64,000 nucleotides of DNA, taken from assembly GCF_030864005.1 (NCBI RefSeq), contig NZ_CP132976.1, positions 1,612,001-1,676,000 on the forward strand, written 5' to 3'. Below the pieces are notes generated by a model. The model saw nothing but the letters and a program-made list of their open reading frames with translations, was not told the DNA's origin and ran no database searches. The position numbers were made by a program, and so were the translations under genes. The stretch comes from Achromobacter seleniivolatilans. Lineage in GTDB: Bacteria > Pseudomonadota > Gammaproteobacteria > Burkholderiales > Burkholderiaceae_B. Below, in pieces: positions 6,141 through 19,613 of the stretch (positions within the stretch are counted from its first letter, which is position 1; every line of letters begins with the position of its first letter).

Positions 6141-7190
6141 ATGTTCAGAACGATAAATCGCGCCACTCGCGCCGCCGCCGACCTTCTGGATGAACAATTG
6201 GCGGACATGGTTTGGCCGGTAGTGCCCGGCCAGAGCTTGCGCGCGCTGGTGGACGCGGGATGCGACGCCTTGCCAATGCCAGGGTCAGGAGACACCTTGT
6301 CTCGCTGGAAGACCCTGGCCAAGGTTGGCGCGGCGGATCTGGGGCTGGCCAAGCTGTTCGAGGGTCATACCGATGCGCTGGCTATTCTTGCGGAACTGCA
6401 TGGCGCCGCTGGCCCGCTGGCTGGCAGCCGCTGGGGGGTGTGGTGTGCCGAGCCGCCTCAGTATCGGGTCGGGATTACATGTTTAACGGATGGCCGAGTG
6501 GAACTCAACGGGATAAAGGCCTGGTGCTCTGGCGCGTTGGACCTGACGCATGCGCTTGTCAGCGGGTGGGACCGCGCGGGCCGCCCGTGTCTGGCTGCCC
6601 TGCACCTGGATCAGGCTGGCGTCACGATGATCGACCCGGGCTGGCATGCAGTGGGAATGCGAACCAGCGCCACAGTGAATGTGCGGTTTGATCGCGTATT
6701 TGGGACGCTGGTCGGAGCGCCAGGCGCCTACGTTGATCGACCGGGATTTCTGCATGGTGGCGCGGGGGTGGCTGCCTGCTGGTACGGTGGCGTCACCCGT
6801 GTTGCGCAGCGGCTGCGGCTGGCAGCCAGCGCGCCAAGCGGGCTGGAACATGTGGACCCCTTCCGATTAGCCCATTTGGGGGCCGCTGATACCGCGCTTG
6901 CCCAGGCTCGCGCCGTACTGCGCGAAGCTGCATCCGCTATTGATGCCGCGCCGGATGACGGCTGTGCGCTGGTCACCGCTAGAGCCAGGCTGGCCGTTGA
7001 AGCCGCGGCAGAGGAAGTGCTGCTGAGAGCAGCGCGCGCATTGGGCGCCGGTCCGATGTGCCAGGACGCCGCATTTGCCCAGGCCATGGCGGACTTACCG
7101 GTATTTATCCGGCAGAGCCACGCTGAACGTGATCAAGCGGCCCATGGCGCGCTGGTAGCGGCGCTTACGGAGCCGCCATGGATTCTGTAG
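6141..7190 (+). CDS. acyl-CoA dehydrogenase-like flavoprotein
   Basis: 349 residues with acyl-CoA dehydrogenase architecture: helical N-terminus, a central strand region with ELNGIKAWCSGALDLTHALV (about 115-135; the NG-x-K-x-W/F-x-S-G motif that binds FAD) and a helical C-terminal domain beginning near RLAASAPSG. It is shorter than the usual 380-400 residues. It overlaps the next gene by 13 bp and the three genes 6141-8441 form one unit with a methyltransferase and a glycosyltransferase. In related clusters a PIG-L deacetylase accompanies these; none is seen here. The real substrate is unknown; modification of a glycan or lipid intermediate rather than beta-oxidation is inferred from context. 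Confidence 0.78.
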   Translation: MFRTINRATRAAADLLDEQLADMVWPVVPGQSLRALVDAGCDALPMPGSGDTLSRWKTLAKVGAADLGLAKLFEGHTDALAILAELHGAAGPLAGSRWGVWCAEPPQYRVGITCLTDGRVELNGIKAWCSGALDLTHALVSGWDRAGRPCLAALHLDQAGVTMIDPGWHAVGMRTSATVNVRFDRVFGTLVGAPGAYVDRPGFLHGGAGVAACWYGGVTRVAQRLRLAASAPSGLEHVDPFRLAHLGAADTALAQARAVLREAASAIDAAPDDGCALVTARARLAVEAAAEEVLLRAARALGAGPMCQDAAFAQAMADLPVFIRQSHAERDQAAHGALVAALTEPPWIL

Positions 7191-10331: not shown

Positions 10332-10339
10332 AGCTCGCC

Positions 10340-12322
10340 TTAGCCGTTGCGGCGGGCAGAAGACAAGCGTTGCACCACTTGCAGCAAGCGATCGATCTCG
10401 TCGTAGGTGTTGTAGAACGCCAGCGACGGCCGCACCGTGGTTTCCACGCCAAAGCGGCGCAAGATGGGTTGCGCGCAATGGTGGCCCGTGCGCACAGCGA
10501 TGCCTTCATCGTTTAACGCCTGACCCACCTCTTCCGTGCTGTAGCCGGCCAGCACAAACGACATGACGCTGGCTTTCTCTGCCGCCGTTCCGATCAGCCG
10601 CACGCCCTTGATAGCGCCCAATCCGCGCATGCCGTAGACCAGCAGCTCGTGCTCGTAGCGGCCGATGTTTTCAATGCCCAATCGCGTCACGTAGTCCAGC
10701 GCCGCACCCAATCCGACGGCATCGGCGATATTGCCAGTACCGGCTTCGAACTTATTGGGTATGGGCTGGAATACCGTTTTCTCGAAAGTCACATCGGCAA
10801 TCATGTTGCCCCCGCCTTGCCACGGCGGCATGTCTTCCAGCACCTCGCGCTTGGCCCAGACTGCGCCAATCCCAGTGGGTCCGAAGATCTTGTGGCCCGA
10901 GAACACGAAGAAATCAGCGCCCAGGTCTTGCACATCCACCCGCATATGCGATACCGACTGGGCGCCATCGACCAGCACGCGGGCGCCCGCCCGGTGCGCC
11001 AGGTCAACGATCTGCTTGATAGGCGTTACCGTGCCCAACGCATTCGAGACCTGCGTCACCGACACGATACGCGTGCGGTCATTGAGCAGCTTCTGGTATT
11101 CATCCAGCAGAATCTGGCCGCTGTCGTCGACGGGAATCACGCGCAGGCGTGCGCCTTTGGCGGCGGCCAATTGCTGCCAGGGCACGATGTTGGCGTGGTG
11201 TTCCAGGTTCGACACGATGATCTCATCGCCCTCACCCACGTGTTGCGCGCCCCAGCTTTTGGCGACCAGATTGATCGCTTCGGTGGTGCCGCGCACGAAA
11301 ATCACTTCGTTCACGTCCGGCGCATTGATAAAGCGTCTGACCCGTTCACGCGCGCCTTCGTAGGCGTCCGTGGCGCGGGCAGCCAGTTCGTGCGCTGCGC
11401 GGTGAATGTTGGAGTTTTCGTGAGCGTAAAAATACGCAATGCGATCGATGACGCTTTGCGGCTTGTGCGTGGTTGCGGCGTTGTCGAACCACACCAGCTG
11501 GCGGCCGTTGACACGTTCCTGCAATACGGGAAAGTCGCGCCGCACCGCGTGCACATCAAATGGCGGACGCGCATCCGAACCTGCATGCGGCGCCGTGCGC
11601 GCATTGGGATGCGCTGGCGTCACATAGCCGCTGGGCAGCACCACGGCGTCCACGAAGTAGTATCGCGGGTCGCCGGCAGGCGCTGGATTGGAAGCGGGCT
11701 GGGGCGATGCGGCAGCGGGAGCCGAAGCAGGCAACGAATACCCCGCCAACTGATCACTGACGCGCGTTGCCCCCAGTACATTGGGGCTGTCTGCACTGCC
11801 TGCCAATGGTTGGCCGTGCGACGCATCCAGGAAATAGTACGGCGCAGCCGCGCGGGCCGAACCATCAGACGGGGCAACCACGGGCGCAATGCCCGTAGCA
11901 CCCGATCCAAAGCGCGGTTCGTATGCAGGCACCGCCGTCACGACATTGTCCGGCAAGCCGTTACCGGCCTGCGCGTGCGGCAACAACGCTGGGGCGCGAT
12001 GCGCCAGTGATGGCAATTGCGCGGGCGACGCGGGCACCAGGTTGGCTCCCGGCGCATAGCCTTGCGGAATCGGGGTCCCCGGCACGCTAGGGCCCAAGCC
12101 CGCAGGGCTGACCAGCGGCGAACCGGGCGGCGCGACATTCAAGGGCGCCTGCACCCCAGGGGGCACGGCCGCCGGCACATTACTCGCCACGCCCTGCCCT
12201 GGCAGCGCCGAGAAGAAGGCGTTGGCCAGGCGGGAAAGCTCACCCGGATCGATGGGCGCTTCCGGCGCGCCCGGCAAGCCGCCCAAGGCGGCAATCGGCA
12301 CAGAGGAATCTGCAAGACTCAT
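10340..12322 (-). CDS. family 2A encapsulin cargo: SufS-like cysteine desulfurase with disordered N-terminal domain
   Basis: 660 residues, about 250 longer than free SufS-type desulfurases. The C-terminal enzyme (about 254-660) removes sulfur from L-cysteine using PLP: the Schiff-base lysine is Lys478 in SGHK and the sulfur-accepting cysteine is Cys616 in RTGHHCAQP, the group II signature. Residues 1-253 are Pro/Ala/Gly-rich and predicted disordered, with a short helical PGELSRLANAFFSAL patch (27-41) and two copies of YYF(L/V)DA (162-167 and 221-226). Family 2A encapsulin systems load a desulfurase through such an N-terminal domain, and the shell gene lies immediately upstream (8-bp gap). Expected role: generate sulfane sulfur for storage inside the shell. 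Domain assignment is firm; the docking role of the motifs is inference. Confidence 0.92.
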   Translation of the reverse strand: MSLADSSVPIAALGGLPGAPEAPIDPGELSRLANAFFSALPGQGVASNVPAAVPPGVQAPLNVAPPGSPLVSPAGLGPSVPGTPIPQGYAPGANLVPASPAQLPSLAHRAPALLPHAQAGNGLPDNVVTAVPAYEPRFGSGATGIAPVVAPSDGSARAAAPYYFLDASHGQPLAGSADSPNVLGATRVSDQLAGYSLPASAPAAASPQPASNPAPAGDPRYYFVDAVVLPSGYVTPAHPNARTAPHAGSDARPPFDVHAVRRDFPVLQERVNGRQLVWFDNAATTHKPQSVIDRIAYFYAHENSNIHRAAHELAARATDAYEGARERVRRFINAPDVNEVIFVRGTTEAINLVAKSWGAQHVGEGDEIIVSNLEHHANIVPWQQLAAAKGARLRVIPVDDSGQILLDEYQKLLNDRTRIVSVTQVSNALGTVTPIKQIVDLAHRAGARVLVDGAQSVSHMRVDVQDLGADFFVFSGHKIFGPTGIGAVWAKREVLEDMPPWQGGGNMIADVTFEKTVFQPIPNKFEAGTGNIADAVGLGAALDYVTRLGIENIGRYEHELLVYGMRGLGAIKGVRLIGTAAEKASVMSFVLAGYSTEEVGQALNDEGIAVRTGHHCAQPILRRFGVETTVRPSLAFYNTYDEIDRLLQVVQRLSSARRNG

Positions 12323-12330
12323 CGCGCGGC

Positions 12331-13263
12331 CTACTTGTAGGTATCGGGATAGTCGTGATATTTCCCGATCTCAACGTCATCCAGCACGGCCAGCGCGTCG
12401 TCGGCCAACAAAGCCAGCGAGCAATACAACGAGATCAGGTAGGAAGCGATTGCATGGTTGTTAATGCCCATGAACCGCACGGACAGACCCGGGCTTTGCT
12501 CGCCGGGCAAACCGGGCTGATACAGACCGACCACACCCTGACGCTTGTCGCCCACGCGCAGCAGCAGAATCTTGGTCTTACCATCGGCCACCGGCACCTT
12601 GTCCGAAGGAATCAGCGGAATGCCGCGCCACGTGATGAACTGCGATCCGAACAGGCTGACGGTAGGCGGCGGCGTGCCGCGGCGCGTGGCTTCGCGGCCA
12701 AAGGCGGCAATGGCCAACGGATGCGTCAGGAAGAAAGCGGGTTCCTTCCAAACCTTGGTCAGCAGTTCGTCCAGATCGTCGGGCGTGGGCGCACCGGTCA
12801 GCGGGAAAATGCGCTGCTCTTCGGTCACCTGCGACAACAAACCGTAATCGGGATTGTTGATCAGCTCGCTTTCCTGATTTTCCTTGATCGTTTCGATCGT
12901 CAGGCGCAGTTGTTCCTTGATCTGGTCATGCGGGCTGCTGTAGAGATCAGAGATGCGGGTATGCACGTCCAACACGGTGCTGACGGCGTTCAGGAAGTAC
13001 TCGCGCGGATTCTCTTCGTAGTCGACGAAGGTGCGCGGCAGCTGGTTTTCGGCCTCGCGCGCCGTGCATGTGACTTTGATGTTTTCGGGATTCTTGACTT
13101 TGTTCAGGCGGTAGATGCCTGCTTCCACCGGCACCCATTGCAGCAAATGGGTCAGCCAACGGGGGCTGATGGTGGATAGTTGCGGAACGGTTTTGGTGGC
13201 GTTGGCTAACTGCCTTGCGCCGTTGTCGCCCAGTGCGACGGTCCCGCCTACGGTGGCACTCAT
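12331..13263 (-). CDS. family 2A encapsulin nanocompartment shell protein (SrpI-like)
   Basis: 310 residues, HK97-type capsid fold protein of the SrpI/major membrane protein I family. Recognisable family segments include QLSTISPRWLTHLLQWVPVEAGIYRLNKVK near the N-terminus (split: SPRWLTHLL about 36-44, VEAGIYRLNKV about 49-59), CTAREAENQLPRTFVDYEE (about 69-87) and C-terminal LLRVGDKRQGVVGLYQPGLP. Start 13263 (MSATVGG) has GGAG 6 bases upstream; the longer in-frame start would run into the regulator gene. Shells of this family self-assemble in the cytoplasm and enclose the cysteine desulfurase encoded just downstream; sulfur storage has been reported for the family. Confidence 0.93.
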   Translation of the reverse strand: MSATVGGTVALGDNGARQLANATKTVPQLSTISPRWLTHLLQWVPVEAGIYRLNKVKNPENIKVTCTAREAENQLPRTFVDYEENPREYFLNAVSTVLDVHTRISDLYSSPHDQIKEQLRLTIETIKENQESELINNPDYGLLSQVTEEQRIFPLTGAPTPDDLDELLTKVWKEPAFFLTHPLAIAAFGREATRRGTPPPTVSLFGSQFITWRGIPLIPSDKVPVADGKTKILLLRVGDKRQGVVGLYQPGLPGEQSPGLSVRFMGINNHAIASYLISLYCSLALLADDALAVLDDVEIGKYHDYPDTYK

Positions 13264-13348
13264 ATGAATCTCCGAAATAAACAAATAATCAAAATGACTG
13301 AACCGAAGTCTGCGCGCCGCCCAACCGAGCGACAACAGGCTATCGCCA
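13264..13348 (-). promoter_or_regulatory. AT-richer leader upstream of the encapsulin gene
   Basis: The 85 bp between the XRE regulator stop and the shell start is markedly AT-rich near 13270-13295 compared with its surroundings. It is the only gap of this size inside the nanocompartment locus, so it is the likely site of a dedicated shell/cargo promoter and of XRE control. No clear -35/-10 pair or operator repeat was identified. Confidence 0.35.
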
Positions 13349-13582
13349 TCATTCGGGGTTGAATCTTCCGCATTGCGCCAACAGGCTTGCCGCATCCAAT
13401 TGCAGCGCAGTGGCGAGCTTGTGTACGGTCACGATTGACGCAACGACGCGCGCGCGCTCGATCTCGCCCACATAGGAACGGTCCAGATCGGAACGCTCCG
13501 CCAATTGTTCCTGTGACCAGCCCTGGGTTTCGCGCAGCGCTCGCACGGTGCGGCCAAACACCTTCACGACGTCTTGGCTCAT
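13349..13582 (-). CDS. XRE-family transcriptional regulator of the nanocompartment locus
   Basis: 77 residues consisting essentially of one Cro/CI helix-turn-helix: GRTVRALRETQGWSQEQLAE (about 10-29, first helices) and DLDRSYVGEIER (about 32-43, recognition helix). There is no sensory domain. Its start overlaps the serine acetyltransferase stop by 4 bp (ATGA) and it sits directly before the shell gene, so local autoregulation of the sulfur compartment is likely. Similar short XRE regulators occur next to other family 2A encapsulins; the DNA target was not located. Confidence 0.85.
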   Translation of the reverse strand: MSQDVVKVFGRTVRALRETQGWSQEQLAERSDLDRSYVGEIERARVVASIVTVHKLATALQLDAASLLAQCGRFNPE

Positions 13583-14508
13583 CCAGCAGGCTCCTGCTCG
13601 GCCACCGGCTGTTCTCGCTGGCGTTGTGTGCTGCGGGGGCCGGCTTGGGTCACGGCGGCGCCCGCGGCGACGTCTTCAGTGATCCAGACATTGCCGCCAA
13701 TGACGGCGCCCCGTCCCAGCGTCACGCGGCCCAGGATGGTGGCCCCGGCATAGATGACGACATCGTCTTCCACGATGGGATGGCGGGCCACGCCTTTTTC
13801 CAGATTGCCATCCGCATCCGTGACAAAGCGTTTTGCGCCTAGTGTCACGGCTTGGTAAATACGCACGCGCCGCCCGATACGCGCGGTTTCGCCAATGACG
13901 ACGCCCGTGCCGTGATCAATGAAACAGCCCGGGCCGATCTGCGCGCCGGGGTGGATGTCGATGCCCGTTTCGCCATGCGCGATTTCGGCCGCAATGCGCG
14001 CCAGCAGCGGAAGTTCCAGCAAATAGAGCTGATGGGCCAGCCGGTGATGGATCAGCGCGTGTATGCCGGGATAGCAGAGCAGCACTTCGTCCACGCTGCG
14101 CGCGGCCGGATCGCCCTGATACGCCGCCAGCACATCACTATCCAGCAGACGCCGCACGTCAGGCAAGGCGGCCGCGAAGCTGCGCACGACCAGCGCCGCC
14201 CGTTCATCCACGCTGGCATCATCCGGCGCATAGCGCCGCAGTTCCAGACGCGCTTGTTCCAGCAGGCTCCGCAAGGCGGCATCCAGCGTGTAACCCACGT
14301 AGAAGTTTTCGCTCTCGTGGCGCATGTCCACGGGGCCCAGCCGCATGGGAAAAAGCGCGCGCTTGAACTTATCGAAGATATCGGCCAACGCTTCGCGGGA
14401 GGGAAACTCGCGCTCACCCGGTTCGCGGGTGCGTTGTTGGGAAGTTCTCCATTCGGCCCGGATGCCTTCCAGCGCCCGCACCACGCCATCCAGATCGAAT
14501 ACCGCCAT
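13579..14508 (-). CDS. epsC: serine O-acetyltransferase, EpsC/CysE type
   Basis: 309 residues. Catalyses acetyl-CoA plus L-serine to O-acetylserine, the precursor of cysteine. The helical N-terminal domain is followed by a left-handed beta-helix of hexapeptide repeats (from about residue 190) with the catalytic histidine motifs IDIHPGAQIG and IDHGTGVVIGE. Start at 14508 (MAVFDLDG) was chosen because it follows the rhodanese stop by 1 bp and has AGGA 6 bases upstream; the longer frame adds residues encoded within the rhodanese gene. In this locus it would supply cysteine for the encapsulated desulfurase, linking assimilation and storage of sulfur. Confidence 0.9.
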   Translation of the reverse strand: MAVFDLDGVVRALEGIRAEWRTSQQRTREPGEREFPSREALADIFDKFKRALFPMRLGPVDMRHESENFYVGYTLDAALRSLLEQARLELRRYAPDDASVDERAALVVRSFAAALPDVRRLLDSDVLAAYQGDPAARSVDEVLLCYPGIHALIHHRLAHQLYLLELPLLARIAAEIAHGETGIDIHPGAQIGPGCFIDHGTGVVIGETARIGRRVRIYQAVTLGAKRFVTDADGNLEKGVARHPIVEDDVVIYAGATILGRVTLGRGAVIGGNVWITEDVAAGAAVTQAGPRSTQRQREQPVAEQEPAG

Positions 14509-14509
14509 A

Positions 14510-15004
14510 TCAGTCCTGAACCCAGGGCAAACCACGGTGGCGCCAACCGTCGTTCAATCCACGGTGTTGATTGGCGTCGATCTCGCCTTCAAATCCCTCA
14601 AAGACGTTGAAGACAGACGAGAAGCCGGCCTTGGCTGCCGCTTCGGCTGCCAGGGCGGAACGCTTGCCGCTGCGGCACAGCAGCAGAACGACTGCGTCTT
14701 TACCGCCAGCGCTCGCGACTTTGGCTTCCAGTTCGCGCACAAAGCGCGGATTGCGCGTCAGGCTGGTTCCGGTCGCCCACGGCACATGCACCGTACCGGG
14801 AATGTGGCCGACAAACTTGCGTTCTTCGGCCGAGCGCACGTCCACCAATACGGCTGCGCCGTTTTGGGCAAGCGTCCAGGCGTCGTCCGGCGAGACGCCG
14901 CCTGAATACGGCAGATGCTGTTCCAGCGCCCGGGCGCGTGCTTGTTCCAGGGTTGCGGGCAAGACCCGTTCAGATACGGCGGCTTCGGTGGTGTCGTAGC
15001 TCAT
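14510..15004 (-). CDS. rhodanese-like sulfurtransferase
   Basis: 164-residue single rhodanese domain. The active-site loop LLCRSGKRSA places the persulfide-forming cysteine at Cys110; the DVRSAEERKFVGHIPG segment (about 55-70) is the conserved substrate-binding N-terminal motif. Rhodaneses move sulfane sulfur between donors and acceptors, so it could carry sulfur to or from the desulfurase/encapsulin compartment. Start 15004 (MSYDTTEA) has GGAG about 11 bases upstream. First gene of the rhodanese-epsC-XRE-shell-cargo run, with gaps of 1 bp and -4 bp to the next genes. Confidence 0.9.
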   Translation of the reverse strand: MSYDTTEAAVSERVLPATLEQARARALEQHLPYSGGVSPDDAWTLAQNGAAVLVDVRSAEERKFVGHIPGTVHVPWATGTSLTRNPRFVRELEAKVASAGGKDAVVLLLCRSGKRSALAAEAAAKAGFSSVFNVFEGFEGEIDANQHRGLNDGWRHRGLPWVQD

Positions 15005-15104
15005 GGTGGAAGGGGCTCCAAACAAGGGATCGCGGCAAGGGCGACAGAACCCACAATCTAGGCCCAAAGCCGCGAAATCCAAATGAATAAAAAGTCGGAA
15101 ATTA

Positions 15105-15119
15105 ACAACCGCTGGTTGT
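15105..15119. repeat. 6-bp inverted repeat (ACAACC/GGTTGT) upstream of the rhodanese gene
   Basis: ACAACC-GCT-GGTTGT, a perfect 15-bp dyad in the 144-bp gap between the binding-protein gene (ends 15149) and the rhodanese gene (starts 15004). On the minus strand it is followed by TAATTT and then an AT-rich tract that could contain the rhodanese promoter. It may be an operator for the XRE regulator or a weak terminator for the upstream transporter gene. Confidence 0.4.
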
Positions 15120-15148
15120 GTAGCCGCCCTGCCCGCTTGCTCGCAGGC

Positions 15149-16141
15149 TTACTTGCGGGCCAGGGATTGTTCGTACGGGCCGGCGTCCAGCGCGCCCGCA
15201 GGCAAATCACCCTTCAGCGTGCCGTTGTCTTTGAAAATCTGGAATTCGCGCTTGAGCGTTTCCAGGTCGGCGGCGTTGAGCGACACGCGGTAGTTCTCAT
15301 CCCACAAGTCTGCAAACACCTGTGCATCCGCCTGCGGCAGATTGGCCGCCTTTTGCACCGCGCTGACTACTTGGGCGGGATTGGACTTGCCGTACTCCAG
15401 CGCTTGGCGCAAGGCCACGATCGCTCGCACCACCGCATCAGGATTCTTTTGCAGGTACTCCGCCCGCACTACGCCGACCGCGTTGTACGGCACGCTATCG
15501 CCCTTGGTCAGCGTCTTCCACTGTTCGCCGAACGTCGACAAGGTGCGAACTTTCAGATCTTTCAATTGCGCTGTGGTCACGTTGCGCAGCGCGGCGGCAT
15601 CCACTTCTTTTTGCGCCAGGAACTGCACCAGCCGCGGCTCGTTGCCGGGGACCAGCGTGAACTCGTTCTCTTTGATGCCATGGTTGCCCGCAAGCACCGC
15701 ATTGGCGATGGTGGCAGTGGAGCTGCCCGCTGGCGACATGCCGATCTTCTTGCCCTTCAGGTCGGCAAGCGATTTGATCGGCGAGTCTTCCAGTACTACG
15801 AACGACACGTTCGATGGCTGAGTCGCCAGAATGATCTTGACGGGCACGCCGTCGGTGGCCAGGGCGAAAGCGCCCGCGGCGGGTGAACCGAACGCCAGAT
15901 CAATCGCGTTGGCCGCGATGGCGCGGGTAGGTCCATTGACGTCCGAAAAATGTACGTACTCCACCTCCAGTCCTTGATCCTTGAAGAAACTGCCGGCCTC
16001 AAGGACAGCGCCGTAACCCAGTGTCAGACCGCTGGGCCAGTAACCAACGCGGATCTTCTCGGCCTGTGCGGGCGACGCCGCCACCGTGCCAGCAAGCAGC
16101 GTCAGCGCCGCGGCGCGTTTGATAAGTTGCAGGATGTTCAT
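15149..16141 (-). CDS. ABC transporter substrate-binding protein, sulfonate/nitrate/taurine type
   Basis: 330 residues with a signal peptide of about 27 residues ending ASPAQA. The mature part starts EKIRVGYWPSGLTLGYG and contains LKGKKIGMSPAGSSTATIANAVL, typical of SsuA/TauA-like type II binding proteins that deliver sulfonates, nitrate or aromatic acids to an ABC permease. Start 16141 has GGAG 5 bases upstream. No permease or ATPase is directly adjacent; it lies after the aldolase gene and could serve either transporter at 16924-18471 or 23508-25120. The neighbouring sulfur locus makes an organosulfur substrate attractive but unproven. Confidence 0.87.
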   Translation of the reverse strand: MNILQLIKRAAALTLLAGTVAASPAQAEKIRVGYWPSGLTLGYGAVLEAGSFFKDQGLEVEYVHFSDVNGPTRAIAANAIDLAFGSPAAGAFALATDGVPVKIILATQPSNVSFVVLEDSPIKSLADLKGKKIGMSPAGSSTATIANAVLAGNHGIKENEFTLVPGNEPRLVQFLAQKEVDAAALRNVTTAQLKDLKVRTLSTFGEQWKTLTKGDSVPYNAVGVVRAEYLQKNPDAVVRAIVALRQALEYGKSNPAQVVSAVQKAANLPQADAQVFADLWDENYRVSLNAADLETLKREFQIFKDNGTLKGDLPAGALDAGPYEQSLARK

Positions 16142-16169
16142 GTGTGCTCCGATAGAGAACCGCGCGATG

Positions 16170-16952
16170 TCATAGACCGCGCGGCATTGAGTGATAAGAA
16201 GGGTCAATGTGGTCCAACCTGCGCAGCAAGGCTTGCCACAGGCGCGGTCCGCTGCGGCTCGCAGCGCGGTCAAAGGTTGCCGCCGCCCGTTCGATGGCGT
16301 CGAGCGCAGGCACGGCGACGGCTTGGCCCGTTGCCTGTATCTGCAACTGCGCCCGGCAGGCGAATTCCAGAAAGAACATCAATTCAAACGCCTCGCCCAC
16401 GGTCGCCCCGCAGGTCAGCAGCCCGTGGTTGCGCAGCATCAACGCCTTGTGCGGCCCCAGATCGCGCACCAGACGGTTGCGCTCATCCAGATCCACGGCC
16501 ACCCCTTCATAGGCGTGGTAGCCAATCCGGTTATGAAAGCGGGCCGCATGTTGCGTGTACGGCAATAAGCCGTCGCGCAAGGAGGACACCGCCACGCCAG
16601 CCAGCGTATGGGTATGCATGACGCACACCGCGTCCGGCCGCGCCTGATGCACGGCCGAATGAATCACAAAGCCCGCCCGGTTGATGCCCAGCCCGCTCGG
16701 GTCGTCCAGTAATTCGCCATCTGGCCCGACTGTGACGAGGTTGTCCGCCCGAATCTCTTCAAACAGCAGGCCGAACGGGTTGATCAGGAATTGATCGTCC
16801 GCGCCCGGCAGACGCGCCGAAATGTGCGTGTAGATCAGGTCCGTCATGCCATACAGGGCAGCCAGCCGATGGCAGGCCGCCAGATCAGCGCGCATTTGAG
16901 CCCGGGCGGAATCAAGTGGGGGCTCAACTGCGGGCTTGAGTATCTGCGCCAC
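16170..16952 (-). CDS. class II aldolase/adducin family protein
   Basis: 260 residues from a GTG at 16952. GGAGG lies 6 bases before that GTG, inside the permease gene, a stronger signal than at the internal ATG (MRADLAACH). Metal-binding histidine motifs of the family are present: VMHTHTLAG (about 133-141) and LRNHGLLTCG (about 197-206). Members cleave or epimerise sugar phosphates, or decarboxylate/dehydrate small hydroxy acids. The overlap with the ABC permease (29 bp) couples it to that transporter, suggesting it acts on the imported compound, but the substrate cannot be assigned. Confidence 0.85.
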   Translation of the reverse strand: MAQILKPAVEPPLDSARAQMRADLAACHRLAALYGMTDLIYTHISARLPGADDQFLINPFGLLFEEIRADNLVTVGPDGELLDDPSGLGINRAGFVIHSAVHQARPDAVCVMHTHTLAGVAVSSLRDGLLPYTQHAARFHNRIGYHAYEGVAVDLDERNRLVRDLGPHKALMLRNHGLLTCGATVGEAFELMFFLEFACRAQLQIQATGQAVAVPALDAIERAAATFDRAASRSGPRLWQALLRRLDHIDPSYHSMPRGL

Positions 16953-17706
16953 CGGCAGCCTCCCAGAAAACGATCTTGCGATGCAGCCAGCGCACGCTTT
17001 GCGCGCCTGTGATGCCAAACGCCGCCAGCAGAATGACCCCGGCGAACATGGTGCTGACATTCAGATTGACGGCTGCGGACCCGATCAGATATCCCAGTCC
17101 GGCCTCGGACGACACCAGCTCGCCCACAACAGTGCCTATCAGCGCCAGCGACACGCCAATCTGCAAGCCGGCAAAAATGTCGCCCGCAGCGGCAGGCAGC
17201 TTCACGTGGCGAAAGATGTACCAGCGCGATGCCGAAAATGCCCGGCACGCGTCCACCAGATCCGGGTCCACACGGCGGATGCCGACGATGGTGTTGATGA
17301 ACAGCGGGAAAAAGCAGATCAGAACGACCAGCACCACTTTGGACGCCAAGCCAAACCCGAACCAGACAAGAATCAACGGCGCCAATGCCACCTTGGGCGT
17401 GGCCTGGATGGCGACCAGCAAGGGATACACAAACTTCTCAAAGGTGCGGGACTCGGCCAGCACCGCGCCCAGCACCAACGCCAGCACACTGCCTATGGCA
17501 TAACCGATGACGGTTGCAGACACCGTATAGCCGATATGGCGCCAGATGGTGCCGTCCTGAAACACGGATACCAGCGCGCTGAACACGGCGCCCGGCGTCG
17601 TCAGGATGTAGTCGGGAACTTGGAAGAATTTGACGGATAGATGCCAGGCCAGCAGCACGACAAGCAGCGTGGCCAAGGGATACAGGACAGAAGTCAGTCT
17701 TTGCAT
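16924..17706 (-). CDS. ABC transporter permease, sulfonate/nitrate type
   Basis: 260 residues, about six hydrophobic segments, with the EAA-like cytoplasmic loop DACRAFSASRWYIFRHVKLPAAAGDIF (core RWYIFRHVKLPAA, about 155-168) that contacts the ATPase. Matches SsuC/TauC-type permeases in size and in the NTIVGIRRVDPDLVDACRA approach (core GIRRVDPDLV). Sits 3 bp after the ATPase gene and overlaps the aldolase. Together with the genes at 17710-18471 and 18468-19553 it forms a complete importer. Confidence 0.9.
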   Translation of the reverse strand: MQRLTSVLYPLATLLVVLLAWHLSVKFFQVPDYILTTPGAVFSALVSVFQDGTIWRHIGYTVSATVIGYAIGSVLALVLGAVLAESRTFEKFVYPLLVAIQATPKVALAPLILVWFGFGLASKVVLVVLICFFPLFINTIVGIRRVDPDLVDACRAFSASRWYIFRHVKLPAAAGDIFAGLQIGVSLALIGTVVGELVSSEAGLGYLIGSAAVNLNVSTMFAGVILLAAFGITGAQSVRWLHRKIVFWEAAGGADTQARS

Positions 17707-17709
17707 GAT

Positions 17710-18471
17710 TCAGCTGATGAAGTGGCGGCGCAGGTGATCGGTGGCCGCCACGAATGCCGGTTCTGCCAGCGTCGCCAATGAGCGCGGGCGGGCGATATCC
17801 ACGTGATAGTCCTCAACCACCCTGCCCGGCCGCGCCGACATGACCAGAACGCGGTCGGACAGCAAGACGGCTTCGGGAATGCTGTGAGTAATGAACAACA
17901 CGGATTTACGGTCGCGCATCCAGATACGCTGCAATTCCAGCGTCAAGGCCTCTCGCGTCATGGCATCCAGCGCCGCAAAGGGTTCGTCCATCAGCAGCAG
18001 TTTGGGATCGCGTTGCAGCATCCGGGCCAGGCCGACCCGCTGCTGCATGCCGCCCGACAACTCGTTGGGATAGTTATCGGCAAAGTCCCGCAAACCCACA
18101 ACTTCCAGCAGTTCGCGGGCGCGCTGCCGAGCCGACGGGCCGTCTTCACCGAGCGTCTGGCTGGGCAGCAGCACGTTGTCCAACACGGTCCGCCACGGCA
18201 GCAAGGTCGGTTTCTGAAACGCCACGCCTATGTCGCGGTTTGGTCCATCGACCGGAGTTCCCGCGACTTCGATGCGGCCACGGGTGGGCGAAAGCAGTCC
18301 CGCAGCGAGCTTGAGCAAGGTGGACTTGCCGCAGCCAGACGGCCCCAGAATCGTCACGAACTCGCCCTCGCCCACGCGCAGATCCACGTCGCTCAACGCG
18401 TCGATGCTACCCCGCCGCGTCTGGTAGGACACGGACACGGCCTGCGCCTGCAACAAGGGCGTAGCCGTCAT
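17710..18471 (-). CDS. ABC transporter ATP-binding protein, sulfonate/nitrate type
   Basis: 253-residue nucleotide-binding subunit. Walker A GPSGCGKSTLLKL (about 43-55), Q-loop around VAFQKPTLLPW, signature LSGGMQQRVGLARM (about 140-153) and Walker B LLLMDEPFAALD (about 159-170) are all intact, followed by the switch histidine in FITHSIPEA. These match SsuB/TauB-like ATPases. Starts 4 bp inside the end of the binding-protein gene and ends 3 bp before the permease, giving an SBP-ATPase-permease order. Confidence 0.93.
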   Translation of the reverse strand: MTATPLLQAQAVSVSYQTRRGSIDALSDVDLRVGEGEFVTILGPSGCGKSTLLKLAAGLLSPTRGRIEVAGTPVDGPNRDIGVAFQKPTLLPWRTVLDNVLLPSQTLGEDGPSARQRARELLEVVGLRDFADNYPNELSGGMQQRVGLARMLQRDPKLLLMDEPFAALDAMTREALTLELQRIWMRDRKSVLFITHSIPEAVLLSDRVLVMSARPGRVVEDYHVDIARPRSLATLAEPAFVAATDHLRRHFIS

Positions 18472-19553
18472 TGCGCCGCCTTGGCCTGAGCACGTACGGC
18501 AGCAGCGTCAAAGCTGCTGAACTGCGGCACCAGTTGGTTGCTGAAGATCTTTTCCACCGGGATGGCATCGGTATTGAATTCGCCAGCGGCGTGCATGGCG
18601 CCCACAAATGAACGGATCACGGGCAAATCGAACTCGCCCGCCACGCGGTCGCTGCCGTCCGGACGGCGCAATGTGCTGTCCATACGCTTTTTCACCAGCA
18701 CGATGGCCTCGTCCAGGTTCTTCTGGTAGTCGCCGTCTTTAGGCTTGGCCTCGGGCTGGTACTTCCAGAACGTCTCTGCGCATAGACGCGGGTTGGCGTC
18801 GCACGCCAGCACCGCCTTGGTGTAAGCGCGGCCGAAGCGGGCCAGCAGGTCCGGCTGGTCACGCAGGGTGTCTTCATGCGCGATAAAGCCGTTGCTGTTG
18901 ATCTTCTGGAATATGGGCGGGTACGGCAGGCGGCGCACCTTGGTACCGGTCAGTTCCAGCATGGCCGTCCAGGAACTGTTGAAGTTCAGGGCATCGACCC
19001 TGCCCTCTTTCAGCGCCAGAAAACCCGATCCCAGCACGCCTACCGCCACGATATCCACGTCTTTGCCCGGCACCAGCGATTCCTGGCGCAACAACGCGCG
19101 GGTGGAGGGAATCGTGCCCCAGGTCAACGCGCCCACGCCGATCTTCTTACCCTTCAGATCCTTGATCGTCTTGATCGGTCCATCCGCCAGCACGGCAAGT
19201 TCCAGCTCGTTGGACGGAATGGTGTTGTAGAAGTAGCGCACGGGCAACGGCGTCTTGCCGGTCTCGTAGCTGGCAAGCACGGGTTCTGGCAGCGGCAAAC
19301 CTATAGTGACTTTCTTGGACGCCACTTGCGGCAGCAAAGCGCCTGCGCCCTGGAACACGATAGTTTTTACCTCGATGTTTTCCTGGTCGAAATAACCCAG
19401 GTCTTTGCCCAGGCCATAGACGCCGCCGCTGGCAACCGTCAAGGGGATGCCCAGCGCCACGGTGACCGCGTCTGCGGCATGCGCGGCCGACGCGGCGGAC
19501 AGCGCCAAGGCGGCCACGCTTGCGCGGGCCAGAGTGCGAGAGGTCTTCTTCAT
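18468..19553 (-). CDS. ABC transporter substrate-binding protein, NitT/TauT type
   Basis: 361 residues with a signal peptide (MKKTSRTLARASVAALALSA, cleavage near AHA). The mature N-terminus VALGIPLTVASGGVYGLGKD and the LKGKKIGVGALTWGTIPSTRALL segment place it with periplasmic proteins of the nitrate/sulfonate/taurine family. Start 19553 was preferred to the upstream in-frame start because it begins the signal peptide. It overlaps the ATPase gene by 4 bp, so it is the dedicated receptor of that transporter. The ligand is unknown; the following CoA-ligase gene suggests a carboxylic acid. Confidence 0.87.
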   Translation of the reverse strand: MKKTSRTLARASVAALALSAASAAHAADAVTVALGIPLTVASGGVYGLGKDLGYFDQENIEVKTIVFQGAGALLPQVASKKVTIGLPLPEPVLASYETGKTPLPVRYFYNTIPSNELELAVLADGPIKTIKDLKGKKIGVGALTWGTIPSTRALLRQESLVPGKDVDIVAVGVLGSGFLALKEGRVDALNFNSSWTAMLELTGTKVRRLPYPPIFQKINSNGFIAHEDTLRDQPDLLARFGRAYTKAVLACDANPRLCAETFWKYQPEAKPKDGDYQKNLDEAIVLVKKRMDSTLRRPDGSDRVAGEFDLPVIRSFVGAMHAAGEFNTDAIPVEKIFSNQLVPQFSSFDAAAVRAQAKAAQ

Positions 19554-19613
19554 TGCGAGTATCCGTGGGTAAACAATCAGGGAAAAATCAAACATGGAGG
19601 GTCGGCGCCTCGT

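Follow-up and report, generated by a model that had tools for sequence, protein, structure and literature searches.

The window analysed here is a 64,000-nucleotide stretch of the Achromobacter seleniivolatilans genome, and a first-pass annotation had placed in it a five-gene, minus-strand encapsulin cluster, at coordinates that the ORF positions bear out. The genes and the hairpin that follows them are:

14510..15004, minus strand: rhodanese gene, single-domain sulfurtransferase
13579..14508, minus strand: serine acetyltransferase (SAT) gene, EpsC/CysE-type serine O-acetyltransferase
13349..13582, minus strand: XRE gene, 77-aa regulator resembling controller (C) proteins
12331..13263, minus strand: shell gene, family 2A encapsulin
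10340..12322, minus strand: desulfurase gene, SufS-type cysteine desulfurase cargo with an N-terminal loading region of about 250 residues
10298..10331, minus strand: terminator-like hairpin of 15 pairs, 3′ of the desulfurase gene, from a hairpin scan

The XRE and SAT genes overlap by 4 bp, and the 85-bp gap claimed in front of the shell gene is indeed present (13348-13264). The region holds four terminator-like hairpins against 4.6 expected from shuffles, and the one after the desulfurase gene has the longest stem of the four. The adjacent ABC transporter was considered as a sulfonate importer and rejected, its SsuA-family matches reaching 104 and 63 bits against a cut-off of 163.5.

The shell and desulfurase are a genuine family 2A pair, as had been proposed, scoring 530 bits with the NCBIfam model encap_f2a (cut-off 380) and 942 bits with f2_encap_cargo1 (cut-off 800), respectively. 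The 310-aa shell protein finds no match but itself in its own genome and contains SrpI-like (341 bits) as its only Pfam domain, without the cNMP domain, as expected of family 2A; it also passes the family 2B model (412 bits over 400), with its best stretch in the shell part of that model. Two solved shells of the same family, 8t6r (559 bits) and SrpI of Synechococcus elongatus (6x8m, 489 bits), align with it over nearly its full length. In a phylum sample, 4 of 20 genomes show what family 2B shells would be expected to give, with frames of 471-520 aa whose match runs mainly from position 50 of the model onward. Solved desulfurases align with the cargo from about residue 250 onward, leaving an N-terminal region in which we find both published loading motifs of desulfurase cargo (PMC8049743, in part), the first as LSRLANAFFS (residues 29-38) and the second as APYYFLDA (160-167), with a further YYF copy at 218-226; RTGHHCAQP lies at 611-619. 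The loading motifs are claimed for the window desulfurase alone, as a crude pattern for the first finds 22 of 127 desulfurase ORFs and a YYF pattern 99 of 127.

The cluster is known, and its accessory gene set, or operon as such, is already published. Family 2A desulfurase encapsulins share with the window a SufS-type cargo with an N-terminal loading region as well as rhodanese and SAT accessory genes (PMC8346489 and PMC8049743, both in part), these two being the most enriched accessory genes of family 2A operons (PMC8346489, in part). What the available portions of the same two papers do not describe for family 2A is a regulator or DNA site of the kind seen here, where an XRE gene stands between SAT and shell with a predicted promoter of its own behind it. 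The order rhodanese-SAT-shell-desulfurase, in the same direction, is shared by 71 of 73 named relatives, these being the most similar ones, as well as by 27 of 42 loci from an even sample of the order Burkholderiales; these counts leave out loci without enough flank (7/80 and 3/45, respectively). Rhodanese and SAT are therefore conserved beside the shell in relatives, and the lack of conservation that the first-pass annotation had named as grounds for abandoning its view is not what we observe. XRE, by comparison, is missing from 25 of the 42 sampled loci, and since in four further genomes of the genus the remaining four genes stand with neither XRE nor its site, the switch described below is dispensable.

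The features at the XRE stop codon and ahead of the shell gene are as follows.

13332..13352, minus strand: whole conserved element including the flanking TG and TTG, from column conservation in 89 unique XRE-bearing loci
13338..13347, minus strand: C-box-like predicted operator GGCGATAGCC (consensus GGCTATAGCC), 1 nt past the XRE stop codon
13330..13335, minus strand: predicted -35, TTGTCG (relatives: TTGANN)
13307..13312, minus strand: predicted -10, CAGACT, after a 17-nt spacer (relatives: GACACT commonest)

The element has the consensus G[G/T]C-TATA-GC[C/A]-TG-TTGA, starts 76-148 bp ahead of the shell gene and is present at 12/16 positions or better in all 89 unique XRE-bearing loci against none of 42 loci without XRE, while simulated sequence reaches that score in 1.8% per locus (115/6550); the window site, at 14/16, is a good one. 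An nAnAnT hexamer follows at a spacer of 17 in 67 of the 89 loci and of 18 in another 18 (85 together), while no other spacer between 0 and 39 has it in more than 2. The window shell promoter gave no match in a strict consensus scan and is weak. The same association appears when the order is sampled evenly (399 genomes), with the site in 17/17 XRE-bearing and 0/28 XRE-less loci, or 13/13 and 0/28 once four loci common to the discovery set are removed. Scanning these 399 genomes with the pattern returned 10 exact matches against 0 for a backward-read control, all of them on the shell's strand and 81-113 bp before a shell gene, and 7 from outside the discovery set. Given that related loci are not independent, the pooled figures overstate the association; a shell tree offers 12 independent pairs on its supported branches, and all 12 agree in having XRE with the site (sign test, p 0.0005). 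As for the samples, 6 of 137 records were removed as duplicates before counting, the tree leaves out 3 of 131 for want of a usable shell frame, locus L204 offers just 230 bp ahead of the shell, G821 (E 3.8e-4) was left out, and G851 (41% identity) was counted as a row without XRE. The site, the promoter geometry and the covariation with XRE are, like the genes, their families and their order, read directly from sequence. In the window's genome, GGCKATAGCMTGTTG has a single zero-mismatch site, the shell operator, and a genome-wide XRE regulon was considered and rejected: matches with up to two mismatches number 31 forward and 37 reverse, close to the 28 and 29 of the backward-read control, and give no sign of a wider regulon there.

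The XRE product is a small HTH protein of the XRE type and a relative of known C proteins, its best PDB matches being C.AhdI (1y7y, 48 bits) and C.BclI (2b5a, 46 bits), and its AlphaFold2 model shows five helices at a mean pLDDT of 94.6. It carries an SQE motif at residues 23-25, as do 73 of 76 XREs, and the recognition helix L-[N/D/H]-R-[S/T]-Y-[V/I/L]-GE is found in all 76 (LDRSYVGEIER in the window). In C proteins, SQE contacts sigma70 and the C-box reads GACT-tat-AGTC (PMC4824078, in part), or GAC-TATA-GTC with an outer TG (PMC3758141, in part). The restriction-modification (R-M) controllers C.AhdI, C.BclI and C.Esp1396I have their size (74-82 aa against 77 here), the HTH fold and the SQE motif in common with the window XRE, and their sites likewise combine a palindrome with a TATA centre, an outer TG and a position just ahead of the -35. 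However, within the same 3 + TATA + 3 layout the window shell site has GGC/GCC where those controllers have GAC/GTC, it consists of one palindrome where they have paired OL/OR, and the predicted target promoter lies downstream of the regulator's own gene, unlike in R-M systems. Because no restriction or modification genes were found among the 12 neighbouring proteins scanned (3.0 to 23.5 kb), we do not class this XRE as an R-M controller, although its mode of action may be that of a C protein. We found no regulator of this type in encapsulin papers, in a search that took in little of the subscription literature, and the available part of PMC8987985 mentions encapsulins and Xre only separately; an XRE regulator of an encapsulin operon appears to be new.

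Similar sites occur in relatives at the other end of the cluster, where the window contains one decayed candidate and a further, different element.

15040..15056, minus strand: candidate second (feedback) site TTGTGGGTTCTGTCGCC, decayed, with 1 substitution and 2 insertions relative to the relatives' form
15078..15097, minus strand: element CGACTTTTTATTCATTTGGA in the rhodanese promoter, the one TTTTATTC match in the window

A second site, scoring 9/10 or better and lying no more than 150 bp ahead of rhodanese, is present in 36 of 84 XRE-bearing loci (0.6 expected) and in 0 of 18 without XRE, and is missing from the other 48. It is flanked by TG in 30 of the 36, TG not having been a selection criterion, and 24 of the 36 have TAnnnT no more than 20 nt upstream, against a background of 16%. 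Independent pairs are suggestive for this site (a mean of 5.4 of 9 going the same way, 0 opposite and 3.6 without difference; median p 0.06). XRE and the shell site are adjacent, and one deletion would take both. Their joint loss alone is thus no proof of interaction, and the distant rhodanese site provides independent evidence for the link between XRE and its site. The window candidate TTGTGGGTTCTGTCGCC, which overlaps the end of a predicted -10 (TAGATT), is not convincing on its own. As for TTTTATTC, it is found (at most one mismatch) upstream of rhodanese in 55 of 102 loci. It might mark a sulfur-starvation (CysB-type) regulon, but its 4 genome matches at up to three mismatches equal the control count.

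From these observations we infer binding, activation, repression, timing and sulfur flow, and our preferred reading, to which we give a probability of about 70%, is that the family 2A operon is divided into two transcription units, with XRE activating the shell-desulfurase promoter and often repressing its own operon. The rhodanese promoter would drive rhodanese-SAT-XRE, and XRE, a controller-protein-like activator that is probably a dimer, would then bind GGC-TATA-GCC, whose centre lies some 42 bp upstream of the start predicted for the shell promoter, where its SQE helix would contact sigma-70 and turn on shell and desulfurase. In many relatives, XRE may also bind the like site near the rhodanese-promoter start and dampen its own operon, a negative feedback that apparently does not operate in the window. 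The outcome would be a delay, with production of the sulfur acceptor and of the cysteine-precursor enzyme coming ahead of the cysteine-consuming compartment.

Many XRE proteins are repressors, and the same operon and XRE-site pair could also be read with XRE keeping the shell promoter repressed until some signal lifts the repression. The second site, near the rhodanese start region with TAnnnT just upstream, does occupy a repressing position. At the shell promoter, however, the site stops 2 nt short of the -35 and leaves the stretch from -35 to a weak -10 free, and the sigma-contact motif is retained in nearly all XREs, making this reading unlikely.

Somewhat less likely again is a single transcript from the rhodanese promoter for all five genes, as the first-pass annotation would have it, with the element being merely the end of the XRE gene. 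The genes are tightly packed, relatives without XRE keep them without the element, and the XRE stop codon forms the last 3 nt of the site in 58 of 89 loci. Nevertheless, in the other 31 the site lies wholly past the stop, with offset and phase varying between loci, which rules out a conserved coding end and places the DNA, not the protein, under conservation; the -35 and -10 follow at near-fixed spacing, and the element recurs ahead of rhodanese. A single unit is doubtful, since the element precedes the shell in all 89 XRE-bearing loci and is followed in 85 of them by a promoter-like hexamer at a spacing of 17-18 nt. Read-through may nevertheless contribute to expression.

The sulfur route calls for more restraint than it was first given. 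The rhodanese (Pfam Rhodanese 58 bits; PDB 8w14 176 bits) has the active loop CRSGKRS from residue 110, a pattern present in 115/115 rhodanese ORFs scoring at least 150 bits, a count that takes in the window ORF and duplicate loci. The SAT is EpsC-type, at 161.4 bits with NCBIfam EPS_EpsC (cut-off 150), 169 bits with cysE (below its cut-off of 210.65) and 254 bits with PDB 3f1x; it shares DIHPGA and DHGTGVVIGETA with EpsC-type SATs (NF041874; 3f1x, 6lcn) and differs from them in being encoded with an encapsulin. The C-terminal isoleucine of CysE docks CysK, and the window SAT, which ends in EPAG, lacks it. The claim of a self-contained route from serine to cysteine was overstated, as the SAT product is O-acetylserine and the cluster has no cysteine synthase: none of six genome-wide cysKM matches falls in the window, and the only CysK/M-type gene over the cut-off (C1:3214621) is about 1.6 Mb away. 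That rhodanese is the way out of the shell for sulfur is a guess, and it is unlikely to be the sole exit, given that 15 of the 42 sampled loci showed no rhodanese within the stretch retrieved. Thus, although SAT adjoins the shell in 37 and rhodanese accompanies it in 27 of those 42 loci, the missing synthase and the missing rhodaneses make it improbable that the operon is a complete pathway from serine to stored sulfur and back.

It is quite possible, and we put it forward tentatively, that a restriction-type controller and its C-box were recruited into a metabolic operon as a timer, with negative feedback on the first promoter. The shell and its cysteine-consuming desulfurase would be held back until sulfur acceptor and cysteine-precursor enzyme are in place, much as the endonuclease is made to lag behind the methyltransferase by C proteins. 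If true, this would be a restriction-system control circuit serving metabolism. A regulator with an exact DNA site, together with natural relatives that have or lack the switch, makes it testable when desulfurase encapsulins are switched on and how the cell avoids a drain on its cysteine. The XRE protein and the matching DNA switch ahead of the shell gene suggest how such shells may be turned on.

The first-pass annotation had described five genes running in one direction at this locus, and this is borne out: all of them lie on the minus strand exactly where it had placed them, with these family-scan scores:

15004-14510, minus strand: rhodanese (58 bits)
14508-13579, minus strand: EpsC-type serine acetyltransferase, SAT (161 bits, above the model cut-off)
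13582-13349, minus strand: XRE, a small XRE protein of 77 aa
13263-12331, minus strand: family 2A encapsulin shell (encap_f2a, 530 bits; SrpI-like, 341 bits)
12322-10340, minus strand: desulfurase cargo (f2_encap_cargo1, 942 bits)

The SAT also scores 169 bits with the cysE model, yet falls below that model's own cut-off, and the solved shells 8t6r and 6x8m align to the window shell over nearly its full length. Rhodanese and SAT are separated by 1 bp, SAT and XRE overlap by 4 bp, and gaps of 85 bp and 8 bp precede the shell and the desulfurase, respectively. A 15-pair hairpin with a T-run lies 3' of the desulfurase, and it is the longest stem listed in a terminator scan that gave 4 terminator-like sites against a shuffle mean of 4.6. 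The gene cluster is of an already known kind, and such shells reportedly store elemental sulfur, according to a 2024 paper. Cargo loading via a disordered N-terminus, with the motifs LARLANEFFS and AASPYYFLDG, is described in PMC8049743.

The cluster had also been read as a complete route from serine through cysteine and persulfide to stored sulfur, a reading that is only partly supported. All five genes are present, but the sequence does not bear out a complete pathway, because O-acetylserine is not cysteine and the single CysK/M-type gene above cut-off is far off, at C1:3214621, ~1.6 Mb from the window. Five further, weaker CysK/M-type matches occur elsewhere in the genome, none of them inside the window, and a second SAT-like gene is found at C1:280785.

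Shell similarity was used to fetch 80 named loci, a set biased to close relatives; 73 had enough flank, and the order and direction rhodanese-SAT-shell-desulfurase were kept in 71, with XRE also in 66. When genomes of the window's order (Burkholderiales, to judge from the named relatives) were sampled evenly, 45 of 399 had a shell match; 45 loci were read, with one genome counted with two contigs and one very weak match left out. In the 42 with enough flank, the shell was accompanied by the desulfurase in 41, SAT in 37, rhodanese in 27, and XRE in 17. Three loci, from Herminiimonas, Halomonas and a family member (L065, L078 and L143), carry rhodanese, shell and desulfurase, with no SAT found. 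In a phylum sample, the family 2A model matched in 20 of 397 genomes, in 4 of them with a match that resembles family 2B. A shell is carried by 12 of 268 family genomes.

One conserved element occupies the XRE-shell spacer. In 131 unique loci (137 records minus 6 duplicates), this shell site matches at least 12 of 16 positions in all 89 loci with XRE, and all 16 in 64 of them, while the 42 unique loci without XRE score no more than 11/16; a score of 12 is reached by first-order Markov sequence in 115 of 6550 trials. Across the 21 positions [T]TG-NN-G[G/T]C-TATA-GC[C/A]-TG-TTGA, per-column conservation climbs out of the background and is 1-2 bits at most of them; it then drops, and recovers at nAnAnT 17 nt downstream of TTGANN. 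The nAnAnT spacer is 17 in 67 of the 89 loci and 18 in 18 (together 85), and no other spacer between 0 and 39 occurs in more than 2 loci. Since only 2 nt separate the end of the palindrome from the predicted -35, its centre falls near -42 of the predicted promoter, where class II activators and the upstream C-protein site are positioned. In 58/89 loci the XRE stop codon supplies the final three bases of the element, and in the other 31 the element lies entirely 3' of the stop, by 1 to 184 nt and in all three phases; what is conserved is DNA and not protein.

The exact 16-mer has 10 matches in the 399 genomes (backward-read control, 0), all on the shell's strand and 81-113 bp upstream of a shell; three are in loci where the site was first seen and seven outside them. 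XRE and site were concordant in 45/45 even-sample loci (17 both, 28 neither), and in 41/41 (13 both, 28 neither) when four loci shared with the discovery set were removed. A shell tree built from 128 loci shows 14 changes of XRE state, and the site follows XRE in 12/12 independent pairs on supported branches. Because the XRE gene and the shell site adjoin, one deletion could remove both, and sites were therefore sought elsewhere. A similar site (at least 9/10 positions, within 150 bp upstream of rhodanese) was present in 36 of 84 loci with XRE (0.6 expected) and in 0 of 18 without. The flanking TG typical of the shell site, which was no part of the selection, was found at 30 of these 36 rhodanese sites, and a TAnnnT hexamer lay within 20 nt upstream in 24 (random places in the same regions, 16%), a placing that would set the site near the transcription start, in a repressing position. 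With relatedness accounted for, the association of the rhodanese site with XRE is suggestive only (median p 0.06).

By sequence, the nearest solved structures to the window XRE are C.AhdI and C.BclI, both restriction-modification controllers, and its AlphaFold2 model shows five helices with confidence (pLDDT 94.6). Identity of encapsulin XREs to it is 39-62% overall (43-row alignment); 73/76 have SQE, and 76/76 share a helix reading L[NDH]R[ST]Y[VIL]GE. SQE is held to be the C-protein contact with sigma-70 (PMC4824078), and C.Esp1396I contacts GAC and GTC flanking TATA, plus an outer TG (PMC3758141). Thus, XRE may function like a C protein, and it is not classed as a restriction-modification member because no restriction or modification gene was found among the 12 neighbouring proteins scanned.

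In the window, the shell site (GGCGATAGCCTGTTGT) scores 14/16 and is the sole exact match to GGCKATAGCMTGTTG in the genome. The shell promoter here, TTGTCG-17-CAGACT, is weak, and a strict scan passes over it, as may happen with an activated promoter. The rhodanese site is decayed, and four further genomes in the genus retain rhodanese, SAT, shell and desulfurase but have neither XRE nor site, so the window may show the switch declining within its genus.

Two further features lie upstream of rhodanese:

15078-15097: TTTTATTC element, also upstream of rhodanese in relatives
15105-15119, minus strand: ACAACC-AGC-GGTTGT, an inverted repeat on the upstream border of both the rhodanese promoter and the conserved block

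The former is common to 55/102 loci at one mismatch or fewer, and no regulon emerged for it; the latter is partly retained in the Achromobacter relatives L002 and L003. In the four genus relatives L002, L003, L144 and L145, blastn homology is bounded near the operon edges (10339-10368 and 15124-15128; in L002 it starts at 12060 because the contig ends within the desulfurase) and is interrupted at XRE (from about 13295 to 13590 or 13628), while the flanks are different. The operon adjoins homologues of window 35.3-40.0 kb in L002 and L003, and a homologue of 4493-5052 in L145. The operon block seems to be mobile. Directly upstream of rhodanese in the window (15149-19595, minus strand) are a class II aldolase gene and an ABC transporter whose two binding proteins are of the NMT1 type; the scores do not support sulfonate specificity. 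A gene at 6141-7190 (plus strand), adjoining a methyltransferase, weakly matches the SfnB sulfur acquisition oxidoreductase (45 bits against a cut-off of 431), with no Pfam match at 1e-8.

Beyond the gene families, their order, the site, its geometry and its covariation with XRE, which are observed, we propose that XRE would activate the shell and desulfurase and would often damp its own operon, and that the cysteine-consuming compartment would consequently be delayed behind rhodanese and SAT. No report of a controller-protein switch of this kind was found in the literature searched, where most subscription papers fall outside reach. As the cluster itself was already known, it is this putative switch that merits tests.
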